Source of the DNA: Actinomycetes bacterium
GTDB lineage: Bacteria > Actinomycetota > Acidimicrobiia > Acidimicrobiales > Bog-793
Length of the DNA: 34,712 nucleotides
Direction: 5' to 3'
NCBI GenBank assembly: GCA_021797795.1
Contig: JAJZZB010000020.1
Coordinates: 1 to 34,712, forward strand
This document shows, piece after piece, positions 23,726-28,047 of the stretch. The position numbers were made by a program, and so were the translations under genes. Position 1 is the first letter of the stretch. Each line of letters begins with the position of its first letter. Under the pieces are notes generated by a model. The model was not told the origin of the DNA. It ran no database searches and worked only from the letters and a program-made list of their open reading frames with translations.

Positions 23726-24235
23726 ATGAGCGATCCAGTCCACGAGCCGCCTGAGGCCGCCCGCCCGGTCCTCGTCGGCGAGGACATCGGCACCGATGTC
23801 CAGCCCGGCGCAGAAGAGGACCGCTCCCCGGTCGACTCGGTCGAGCAGCCCGCCAAGGTCATGCGGATCGGCGCCATGACCAAGCAGCTCCTCGAGGAGG
23901 TGCGCCAGGCCCCGCTCGACGAGGCGAGCCGCATCCGGCTGAAGGACATCTACGAGACCTCCGTCCGGGAGCTGGCCGCCGGGCTCTCCCCCGACTTGGC
24001 GGGTGAGCTCGACCGGTTGGCGCTCCCCTTCGAGTCGAACTCCCCGAGCGACGCCGAGCTGCGCGTCGCCCAAGCCCAGCTCGTCGGGTGGCTCGAGGGC
24101 CTCTTCCACGGCATCCAGGCGACGCTGTTCGCCCAGCAGATGGCCGCCCGATCGCAGCTCGACGAGTTCCGCCAGCGGGGACTTCCTCCCGGCCAGCACC
24201 CTCCGACCGACACCCGCCCGGGCAACTACCTCTAG
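23726..24235 (+). CDS. bpa: Bacterial proteasome activator Bpa/PafE
   Basis: ATP-independent ring activator of the 20S proteasome, 169 residues (mycobacterial PafE is about 174). The helical core is strongly conserved: PAKVMRIGAMTKQLLEEVR, APLDEASRIRLKDIYETSVREL, then SDAELRVAQAQLVGWLEGLF and HGIQATLFAQQMAARSQL. The protein ends GNYL, close to the GQYL tail by which Bpa docks into the proteasome alpha ring. The N-terminal 40 residues are acidic and probably disordered. Its presence implies a 20S proteasome elsewhere in the genome. Confidence 0.95.
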   Translation: MSDPVHEPPEAARPVLVGEDIGTDVQPGAEEDRSPVDSVEQPAKVMRIGAMTKQLLEEVRQAPLDEASRIRLKDIYETSVRELAAGLSPDLAGELDRLALPFESNSPSDAELRVAQAQLVGWLEGLFHGIQATLFAQQMAARSQLDEFRQRGLPPGQHPPTDTRPGNYL

Positions 24236-24326
24236 GCGGCTCGGCGGGGCCAGGCGCCGAGGTCCTCGACCACGCCGCCCCGGAGCGCGGTATCGTCGGG
24301 CAGGCCGTGAAGTTACACGGCTGTCA

Positions 24327-24361
24327 TTCGTCCACAGCCTGTGGACGAAGCCTGTGGACAG
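24327..24361. promoter_or_regulatory. Cluster of three DnaA-box-like sites upstream of dnaE
   Basis: TCGTCCACA on the plus strand (24328-24336) and, on the minus strand, TCGTCCACA (24340-24348) and CTGTCCACA (24353-24361) each differ by one base from the actinobacterial DnaA box TTGTCCACA. The first two form a perfect 23-nt palindrome (24327-24349); the last two are direct repeats of GCCTGTGGAC 13 nt apart. The cluster ends 35 nt before the dnaE start, so it may be an operator for DnaA or another regulator. Confidence 0.6.
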
Positions 24362-24396
24362 GGCGTGGGTAACGAGTGCAGGAGGGGTCGAGGCAG

Positions 24397-27300
24397 ATGG
24401 CGACCGGTTCGAGGGATTCCTTCGTCCACCTGCACACCCACACCGAGTACTCGATGCTCGACGGCGCCGCCCGCATCGGTGACGTCGTCGCCGCCGCCGT
24501 CGAGGACGGTCAGCCGGCGCTCGCCATCACCGACCACGGCAACATGTACGGCGTCCTCGACTTCTACAAGGAGTGCCGTTCGAAGGGGATCAACCCGGTC
24601 ATCGGGACCGAGGCCTACATGGCGCGCAGCTCCCGGCACGAGCGGCCGGTCCGCAGGGGCCGCATCGACGACACCGGCGGCGAGGGCGAGCGCGGGGAGA
24701 AGCTCTACTACCACCTCACCCTCCTCGCCGAGACGACCGAGGGCTACCGCAACCTCGTCAAGCTGTCGTCGGCCGCCTACCTCGAGGGCTACTACTACAA
24801 GCCCCGGGTCGACTGGGAGCTGCTCGAGCGCCACCACGAAGGCCTCATCGCCACGACGGGCTGCCTCGGCGGGGTCGTCCTGCAGGCCCTCCTCGCCGGC
24901 CAGCAGGCCGAGGCGAAGGCGCTCGCCGGCCGCCTGCAGGACATCTTCGGGCGCGACAACCTCTTCGTCGAGCTGCAGGACCACGCCCTGGCGGACCAGA
25001 AGCGGACGAACCCGTTGCTCGTCGACATCGCCCGTTCGCTGAACGCCCCGCTCGTCGCCACCAACGACAGCCACTACTGCCGCCGCGAGGACGCCGTCGC
25101 CCACGATGCCCTGTTGTGCGTCCAGACCGGGGCCAACATCGACGACCCGAAGCGCTTCAAGTTCGACGGCAAGGAGCACTACCTGAAGGCGGCCGCCGAG
25201 ATGCGACAGCTGTTCTCCGAGCTCCCCGACGCCTGCGACAACACGCTGTGGATCGCCGAGCGGGCCTTTGTCGAGCTCGAGCTCGGCAAGCCGGCCCTCC
25301 CCCGCTTCCCTGTCCCGCCCGAGTTCGAGCGGTCGAGCTACGAGGAGTCGGCGGAGGCCTACCTCCGCCACCTCACCTACGAGGGGGCGGCCGAGCGCTA
25401 CGGCGCCACGCTCCCGCCCGAGGTGCGCGAGCGGCTCGACTACGAGCTCGGCGTGATCTCGGACATGGCCTTTCCCGCCTACTTCCTCGTCGTCTGGGAC
25501 CTCATCCGCTACGCGAGGGAGGCCGGCATCCGGGTCGGCCCGGGCCGCGGGTCGGCCGCCGGCTGCTGCGTCGCCTACTGCCTTCGGATCGTCGACCTCG
25601 ACCCGATCCGCTACGACCTGCTCTTCGAGCGCTTCCTGAACCCCGGGCGCAAGCAGATGCCCGACATCGACATGGACTTCGACGAGCGCCGCCGGGGGGA
25701 GATGATCCGGTACGCGGCCGAGCGCTACGGCTCTGACCACGTCGCCCAGATCGTCACATTTTCGACGATCAAGGCCCGGGCCGCCGTCCGCGACGCCGCC
25801 CGGGTGCTCGGCTACCCCTACGCCCTCGGCGACCGGATCGCGAAGGCCATGCCGCCGCTCGTCATGGGCCGGGACACCCCCTTGAAGGCCTGCCTCGAGA
25901 AGATCGAGGGCTACGAGGACGGCCACGTGGCAGCCGCCGAGCTGCGCCAGCTCTACGACGAGGACCCCGAGGCCAAGCGGGTCATCGACGTCGCCAAGGG
26001 CCTCGAGAACCTGCGGCGCCAGGACGGGATCCACGCGGCCGCCGTCGTCATCACCGACGAGCCGCTCACCGAGTACCTCCCCGTCCAACGCAAGCCCGAG
26101 CCCGGCCAGCCGCCGGAGGACGCTCCGATCGTCACTCAGTACGAGATGCACGGGGTCGAGGACCTCGGCCTGTTGAAGATGGACTTCCTCGGGCTGCGCA
26201 ACCTGTCGGTGATCGAGATGGCGCTCGACCTGATCGAGCAGAGCACCGGCGAGCGCCTCGACATCGACAACGTCCCCCTCGACGACGAGAAGACCTTCGA
26301 GATGCTGCGCCGGGCCGAGACGATCGGCGTCTTCCAGCTCGAGGGGGGTGCCATGCGGACGACGCTGAGGGCGTTGGCGCCGACCTCCTTCAACGACGTG
26401 GCCGCCCTCGTCGCCCTCTACCGGCCGGGCCCGATGGCGGCCAACATGCACCGGGACTACCCCGAGCTGAAGAACGGGCGCAAGGCGCTCGAGTACCTCC
26501 ATCCCGACATGGAGACGATCCTCGGCGACACCTACGGGCTGATGCTCTACCAGGAGTCGGTCATGCGGGTCGCCCAACGCTTCGCCGGCTACAGCCTCGA
26601 GGAGGCCGACAACCTCCGCAAGGCGTGCGGGAAGAAGATCCGCTCCCTCATCGCGGCCGAGCGGGAGAAGTTCGTGAAGGGCTGCATCGACCAGGGCTAT
26701 GGGGAGAAGCTCGGCACCGACCTGTTCGACATCATCGAGCCCTTCGCCGACTACGCCTTCAACAAGTCGCACTCCTTCGGCTACGGCCTCGTCGTCTACC
26801 AGACCGCCTGGCTGAAGGCGAACCACCCCGTCGAGTACCTGGCTGCCCTCCTCTCCTCGGTGAAGGACGACAAGGACAAGACGGCGGTCTACCTCTCCGA
26901 GTGCCGGGCACTCGGCATCGAGGTCCGTTGCCCCGACATCAACGCCTCGATGTCGAACTTCACGACGCTGCCGGCGGACGAGGCGGCGAACCGCCCGGCA
27001 GGGCGGAGAGGCAACTCGCCCGGTGTCATCACCTTCGGGCTCTCGGCCGTCCGCAACGTCGGCTCCGCCCTCGTCGAGCTCATCGTGAAGGAGCGGGACG
27101 CGAGCGGGCCCTTCGCCGACTTCTACGACTTCTGCCAGCGGGTGGACCCGAGCGTGCTCAACAAGCGGGCCGTCGAGTCACTCGCCAAGGCCGGCGCCTT
27201 CGACTCCTTCGGCCACTCCCGCCAGGGGCTCTGCCTCGTCGCCGACGACATCATCGACCGGACGCTCACCCGGAGGAGAGAGAAGGAGCAGGGGATCGCC

Positions 27301-28047
27301 ACCCTCTTCTCGGTCCTCGTGCCCGAGGAAGGTGAGAGCGAGCACGCCTTCGACGACACGCGCGTGCCGATCCCCGAGACCGAGTTCCAGAAGTCCGAGC
27401 GGCTCGGCTTCGAGAAGGAGATGCTCGGACTGTACGTCTCGGACCACCCACTGCTCGGTCTCGAGCACGCCCTCCGCCGACTCGCCGAACACCGCGTACG
27501 CGACGTCCTCGAATCGCAGTCGGGAGGGGCCGCCGGCTACTCGCCCGACGGCGGGCCGGCCACACTCGGCTCCGTCACGACCGGCGGCATCGTCACGGGC
27601 CTCACCCGCCGCTACACCCGCCGGGGAGAGCTGATGGCGAGCTTCACCCTGGAGGACCTCGAGGCGGCCGTCGAGGTGATGGTCTTCCCGAAGACGATGC
27701 AGGAGTACGGCGGCCTGCTCGAGGAGGACGCCGTCGTGGTCCTCCGGGCCCGCCTCGACACCCGGGAGGAGCAGGTGAAGCTGATCGTGCTCGAGGTCCG
27801 CCGCCCCGAGCTCGTCCCGGCCGACGACGGGGCGCCGATCGTCGTCACGCTCCCCCTCCACCGCCTCACAGACTCGATGGTCCGCCAGCTGAAAGAGCTC
27901 GTCGTGGACCACCCCGGTCCTGCTCCCATCCACCTGAAGGTCGGGGCGAAGGAGCTCCGCCTCCCCTCCCAGTTCAACGTCGACCCCCGCGGGGGGATCA
28001 TCGGTGCGCTGAAGGAGCTCTTCGGCGGGAGCGCCGTCGCCTCCTGA
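24397..28047 (+). CDS. dnaE: DNA polymerase III alpha subunit DnaE
   Basis: Replicative DNA polymerase catalytic subunit, 1216 residues. Domains in order: the PHP domain at the N-terminus (HLHTHTEYSMLDG, then ITDHGNMYG), the polymerase core with GRGSAAG (about 381) and PDIDMDFDE (about 421), a middle finger region (FNKSHSFGYG), and a C-terminal OB-fold (GGIVTGLTRRYTRRGELMASF) near residue 1065. The ATG at 24397 is chosen because AGGAGGGG lies 9 nt upstream; a GTG at 24376 has no ribosome site. It follows a cluster of DnaA-like boxes. Length and features match actinobacterial DnaE1, the essential polymerase. Confidence 0.98.
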   Translation: MATGSRDSFVHLHTHTEYSMLDGAARIGDVVAAAVEDGQPALAITDHGNMYGVLDFYKECRSKGINPVIGTEAYMARSSRHERPVRRGRIDDTGGEGERGEKLYYHLTLLAETTEGYRNLVKLSSAAYLEGYYYKPRVDWELLERHHEGLIATTGCLGGVVLQALLAGQQAEAKALAGRLQDIFGRDNLFVELQDHALADQKRTNPLLVDIARSLNAPLVATNDSHYCRREDAVAHDALLCVQTGANIDDPKRFKFDGKEHYLKAAAEMRQLFSELPDACDNTLWIAERAFVELELGKPALPRFPVPPEFERSSYEESAEAYLRHLTYEGAAERYGATLPPEVRERLDYELGVISDMAFPAYFLVVWDLIRYAREAGIRVGPGRGSAAGCCVAYCLRIVDLDPIRYDLLFERFLNPGRKQMPDIDMDFDERRRGEMIRYAAERYGSDHVAQIVTFSTIKARAAVRDAARVLGYPYALGDRIAKAMPPLVMGRDTPLKACLEKIEGYEDGHVAAAELRQLYDEDPEAKRVIDVAKGLENLRRQDGIHAAAVVITDEPLTEYLPVQRKPEPGQPPEDAPIVTQYEMHGVEDLGLLKMDFLGLRNLSVIEMALDLIEQSTGERLDIDNVPLDDEKTFEMLRRAETIGVFQLEGGAMRTTLRALAPTSFNDVAALVALYRPGPMAANMHRDYPELKNGRKALEYLHPDMETILGDTYGLMLYQESVMRVAQRFAGYSLEEADNLRKACGKKIRSLIAAEREKFVKGCIDQGYGEKLGTDLFDIIEPFADYAFNKSHSFGYGLVVYQTAWLKANHPVEYLAALLSSVKDDKDKTAVYLSECRALGIEVRCPDINASMSNFTTLPADEAANRPAGRRGNSPGVITFGLSAVRNVGSALVELIVKERDASGPFADFYDFCQRVDPSVLNKRAVESLAKAGAFDSFGHSRQGLCLVADDIIDRTLTRRREKEQGIATLFSVLVPEEGESEHAFDDTRVPIPETEFQKSERLGFEKEMLGLYVSDHPLLGLEHALRRLAEHRVRDVLESQSGGAAGYSPDGGPATLGSVTTGGIVTGLTRRYTRRGELMASFTLEDLEAAVEVMVFPKTMQEYGGLLEEDAVVVLRARLDTREEQVKLIVLEVRRPELVPADDGAPIVVTLPLHRLTDSMVRQLKELVVDHPGPAPIHLKVGAKELRLPSQFNVDPRGGIIGALKELFGGSAVAS

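Follow-up and report, generated by a model that had tools for sequence, protein, structure and literature searches.

Three putative DnaA boxes in a dnaA-type triad adjoin a candidate operator shared with recA upstream of dnaE in an Acidimicrobiales genome

The leader of dnaE, the gene for the DNA polymerase III alpha subunit, in a 3.8-Mb actinobacterial draft genome (324 contigs) carries three putative DnaA boxes, beside which lies a second, unrelated inverted repeat. Judged from sequence comparisons, DnaA probably lowers dnaE transcription from this triad, with a second regulator, shared with recA, at the adjoining repeat. The arrangement suggests a coupling of polymerase supply to replication initiation and, perhaps, to DNA damage. 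Little is understood of how bacteria adjust their replicative polymerase to the number of forks; with a conserved dnaA-type triad at dnaE, such a link becomes directly testable in actinobacteria.

The dnaE locus and its three boxes

The window (the whole stretch of 34,712 nucleotides that was analysed) has its closest dnaE relatives among Acidimicrobiales metagenome genomes. The start of dnaE is placed at ATG 24397, with AGGAGG 11 nt upstream; GTG 24376 also opens a frame. The features of the region are as follows.

23726..24235, + strand: bpa (bacterial proteasome activator), the gene 5' of dnaE (Pfam PF10759, E 2e-64)
24291..24296, + strand: likely -10 hexamer in the dnaE promoter, TATCGT (inferred in the case of the window)
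24311..24328, no strand: inverted repeat AGTTACA-CGGC-TGTCATT (0 mismatches to the consensus ARYNACA-N4-TGTNRYT)
24327..24349, no strand: perfect 23-nt inverted repeat TTCGTCCACAG-C-CTGTGGACGAA, formed by two facing DnaA boxes (sequence)
24328..24336, + strand: putative DnaA box 1, TCGTCCACA (one mismatch from TTGTCCACA; position kept in relatives)
24340..24348, - strand: putative DnaA box 2, TCGTCCACA (one mismatch from TTGTCCACA; kept in relatives)
24353..24361, - strand: putative DnaA box 3, CTGTCCACA (one mismatch from TTGTCCACA; kept in relatives)
24380..24385, + strand: Shine-Dalgarno sequence of dnaE, AGGAGG (sequence)
24397..28047, + strand: dnaE, DNA polymerase III alpha subunit with PHP, alpha NTPase, finger, HHH and OB domains (Pfam, translation)

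A preliminary description of this DNA had reported three 9-mers, each one base from TTGTCCACA, two of them forming a perfect 23-nt palindrome, in a cluster ending 35 nt before the dnaE start; all of this was confirmed at exactly the positions given there (palindrome at 24327-24349, end of box 3 at 24361, ATG at 24397). Boxes 1 and 2 face each other 3 bp apart, and box 3, oriented as box 2 and 13 bp further on, follows it in tandem at a distance of 4 bp, so that the gaps between the cores are 3 and 7. Among the relatives with facing cores, the three flanking bases are fully complementary in 0/9, and the palindromy is therefore incidental, a by-product of two facing boxes: the conserved feature is the boxes, not the palindrome as such.

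The same description had called three such sites in this space unlikely by chance, which holds for the clustering (all three within 34 nt is unusual) but not for the number, as the 3 matches to the 9-mer in the window lie within the shuffled range (average 1.7, with at least 3 in 23 of 100 shuffles). Single YYRTCCACA words are common (163 in the genome, versus 116 for the reversed pattern), and so a lone box says little and a cluster says much. Over the whole 3.8-Mb genome there are 3 facing pairs TCCACA-N0-8-TGTGGA (one at dnaE, one in the dnaA promoter and one inside a gene reading like an NADH dehydrogenase subunit) and 2 copies of the triad TCCACA-N2-4-TGTGGA-N6-8-TGTGGA, one at dnaE and the other upstream of dnaA.

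The same triad at dnaA

When the triad was searched for without reference to any gene, with the reversed pattern as control, it was found in 230/395 genomes of the class Acidimicrobiia (controls, 0) and in 173/396 genomes of a sample of the phylum (no match listed for the reversed pattern). Examination of 52 triad loci in two batches placed 47 directly upstream of dnaA, 3 upstream of dnaE (the window, L141 and L167) and 2 elsewhere, one of these next to parB. The dominant core gaps at the dnaA triads are 2 or 3, and 6, and the dnaA promoter of one member of a more distant family (L153, TTCGTCCACACCTGTGGACGAAGCCTGTGGA) matches the dnaE triad of the window nearly letter for letter. TANNNT is not enriched 5' of the dnaA triads (15/48, with 15.2 expected). 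Two genomes of the window genome's own family (L142 and L143) each have two copies of the triad approximately 6 kb apart, one of which, in L142, adjoins parB.

The DnaA of this organism has a canonical domain IV, which includes the sequence RDHTTVIHA and can be aligned with DnaA DNA-binding domains of solved structure. Because the triad marks dnaA promoters, the L153 promoter is nearly identical and this DNA-binding domain is an ordinary one, DnaA is the expected ligand of the dnaE triad and, by a wide margin, its best-supported candidate. The preliminary reading of the 9-mers as DnaA boxes is well supported by their clustering, the occurrence of the same triad at dnaA promoters, conservation upstream of dnaE orthologs and the canonical DnaA.

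Conservation upstream of dnaE

The regions upstream of dnaE in 80 relatives contain 5.0 TCCACA cores per kb, versus 0.263 per kb in the rest of the loci, a 19-fold ratio that is no pure promoter comparison, because coding sequence makes up most of the background. Two cores within 45 bp of each other were found in 22/80 dnaE upstream regions and not once in 674 kb of background; the conservation in relatives whose absence the preliminary description had named as grounds for abandoning its reading is thus present. L002, L015 and L003, the nearest three relatives by path, each have boxes together with the inverted repeat, as the window does. The number and spacing of the boxes vary among relatives, some keeping boxes 1 and 3 only.

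On the DnaE tree, members with the box trait are scattered through both main branches and the trait changes 17 times, so either it is ancient and has been lost many times or it has repeatedly been regained. Of 51 relatives with the inverted repeat, 23 (about half) lack boxes at dnaE, which, together with the 17 changes, argues that DnaA input at dnaE is not essential. The raw association of boxes with the inverted repeat is strong (28/51 versus 3/30, p 5e-5); correlated gain and loss of the two on the tree is not significant.

A second inverted repeat shared with recA

The inverted repeat that abuts box 1 was absent from the preliminary description and is more widespread at dnaE than the boxes, being present with at most 1 mismatch in 49/81 dnaE upstream regions (0.0017 expected per 280 nt). 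Its half-sites vary without covariation, the pattern expected where a protein dimer binds and not that of a stem in RNA. A TANNNT sequence stands 3-21 nt 5' of the repeat in 36/48 loci (2.3 expected), and because this -10-like element lies just 5' of the repeat, the repeat and the DnaA boxes probably occupy the transcription start and the sequence that follows it.

The repeat is also found, with at most 1 mismatch, upstream of recA in 18/19 genomes. In most members of the window's order it comes immediately after the LexA box; in other families it has the LexA box on one side and a PafBC-like promoter on the other. At recA of the window's own genome (L259, G000:C316) the repeat (AACTACACTGCTGTAACA, 1 mismatch) begins 1 nt after a near-consensus LexA box (CGAACGTGTGTTTG), an adjacency seen in several other Acidimicrobiales recA promoters. 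Since this operator-like repeat is conserved and also stands upstream of recA, another regulator probably binds beside the boxes; the repeat is likely the operator of a dimeric regulator common to dnaE and recA.

Two known regulators were considered as owners of the repeat and rejected. The LexA box CGAAC-N4-GTTCG is present at both lexA and recA of these genomes and was not seen in the dnaE leader of the window; the inverted repeat is found in 0/14 lexA upstream regions (best, 3 mismatches), all 14 of which carry CGAAC-N4-GTTCG with at most 1 mismatch. The PafBC motif (TTGTCRGTG-N8-TANNNT) differs from the repeat and sits downstream of it at recA. The site of the WYL activator DriD (ATACGAC-N7-GTCGTAT) is similar in size but different in its letters.

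Copies of the repeat occur at several other kinds of loci. In two other actinobacterial families it precedes a conserved WhiB-like gene by 12-15 nt (L207, L209, L210, L215, L218 and L220, near 1501; Pfam Whib for L207 and L215). It lies upstream of sbcD-like nuclease genes in L214 and L217 (near 1501), likewise from other families, in keeping with a repair regulon, and 11-14 nt before the start of a small conserved protein (HTCAPPR...VCPDCGS...) in L206 and L208 (near 1520), the L206 copy of which has no Pfam match. Within the window's own genome, the sole other near-strict copies (L087 and L088, position 1501) stand approximately 20-40 nt before apparent transposase start codons and look incidental, perhaps being insertion-sequence ends. 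In L184-L187 (near 1501) the repeat occurs together with DnaA-like boxes in intergenic DNA that has rhomboid, sortase and crgA-like genes as neighbours; the L187 composite lies between a 77-aa crgA-like open reading frame and a convergent rhomboid gene. Where read, these flanking genes are convergent, so the composite is unlikely to be a promoter element and is possibly a DnaA reservoir.

Proposed regulation of dnaE and alternatives

DnaA is predicted to occupy the dnaE triad cooperatively, as at the dnaA triad. With the triad downstream of the likely -10, bound DnaA would cover the early transcribed region, and we infer that abundant free active DnaA would reduce dnaE transcription, as in dnaA autoregulation, rather than activate it or simply be titrated. 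The supply of polymerase III would thereby follow initiation. The second dimeric regulator, acting also at recA, would bind the adjoining repeat, through which dnaE would receive a further signal, possibly of replication stress or DNA damage. It is possible, rather than probable, that in the dnaE leader DnaA boxes work together with this dimeric regulator's operator to set polymerase III supply from initiation status and damage together; that the regulator governs a LexA-independent regulon and acts also at recA beside LexA in deep-branching Actinomycetota; and that in some families it acts as well at other repair and regulatory genes (sbcD and whiB-like).

The triad might instead bind DnaA in order to titrate or store it, in the manner of datA or DARS, and lie near dnaE by accident, dnaE itself not being regulated. 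The patchy presence of the triad at dnaE would fit such a role, and this explanation, though unlikely, keeps some weight because a similar composite of repeat and boxes lies in the convergent rhomboid/crgA intergenic region of other families (L184-L187). Nevertheless, nearly all triads in the class immediately precede the dnaA or dnaE start, and a passive site need not track two replication genes. Considerably less probable is that a regulator other than DnaA binds the facing repeat TCCACAGcCTGTGGA: TCCACA-N3-TGTGGA would make a plausible dimer operator and has an unrelated inverted repeat alongside, but the varying number and spacing of the boxes fit monomeric 9-mers and not one dimer site, and the arrangement marks dnaA promoters throughout the phylum.

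The palindrome could also act in RNA, as an attenuator or other hairpin in the dnaE 5' untranslated region, and the RNA of the window can indeed form a strong stem there. This is very improbable, given flanks that are fully complementary in none of the nine relatives with facing cores, a third copy that is a direct repeat and the absence of covariation in the pairs of the adjoining inverted repeat; a structured RNA leader was rejected, with no compensatory base changes and no Rfam match. A chance cluster without function, to which the shuffled counts of 9-mers in the window lend some colour, can be practically dismissed in view of the clustering, the conservation in relatives and the identity with the dnaA arrangement. 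Regulation of dnaE by DnaA at the triad, with a second regulator at the adjoining repeat, remains the preferred reading.

Comparison with known systems

Judged by title and abstract, none of the papers found that name both Acidimicrobiia and DnaA deals with this subject. What appears to be new is the placing of a dnaA-type triad before dnaE, in a class that has been little studied, together with a putative operator for which no description was found. The companion site, which recA and dnaE have in common in several actinobacterial families, suggests a regulator acting on replication and repair genes, distinct from LexA and from an obvious PafBC promoter.

Loci such as datA and DARS of E. coli, which titrate or recycle DnaA, consist of box clusters away from oriC with a site for a companion protein; the likeness to the window lies in the box cluster and companion site, by general description alone. 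Mycobacterial recA promoters are controlled by PafBC and LexA (PMC5656591). The recA genes of the genomes studied here likewise have a LexA box, and several have a promoter like TTGTCRGTG-N8-TANNNT, but to these the repeat common to recA and dnaE adds a third element, which matches neither the LexA box nor the PafBC motif.

In E. coli, DnaA prefers pairs of boxes 2-3 bp apart, modelled in tandem, and double DnaA boxes are found at polA, mutH/DARS2, purH and nrdA (PMC11317965). The window resembles these in having closely spaced boxes upstream of a replication gene, as E. coli has upstream of replication and nucleotide genes; none of its pairs is of the tandem type with 9-mers 2-3 bp apart, since boxes 1 and 2 face each other and boxes 2 and 3 are separated by 4 bp.

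The DnaA of Borrelia burgdorferi binds 5' of dnaE in gel shifts, and also 5' of dnaX-ebfC (PMC9879097); as far as found in the literature, this binding is the only report of DnaA at dnaE. In both cases DnaA sits in the promoter region of the gene for the polymerase III alpha subunit (in the window, as predicted from sequence), but Borrelia, of a distant phylum, has one predicted box, without a described triad or companion operator.

Control of replication genes by DnaA is established (PMC8203912, PMC11317965), and dnaA itself is autoregulated through DnaA boxes in E. coli, B. subtilis, Streptomyces and mycobacteria (PMC8203912). With dnaA autoregulation the window shares the same core and the same order of elements (a forward box, a reverse box and a second reverse box, with 2-4 nt and then 6-8 nt between their cores); it differs in that its triad stands at dnaE, with gaps of 3 and 7 and a second inverted repeat adjoining.
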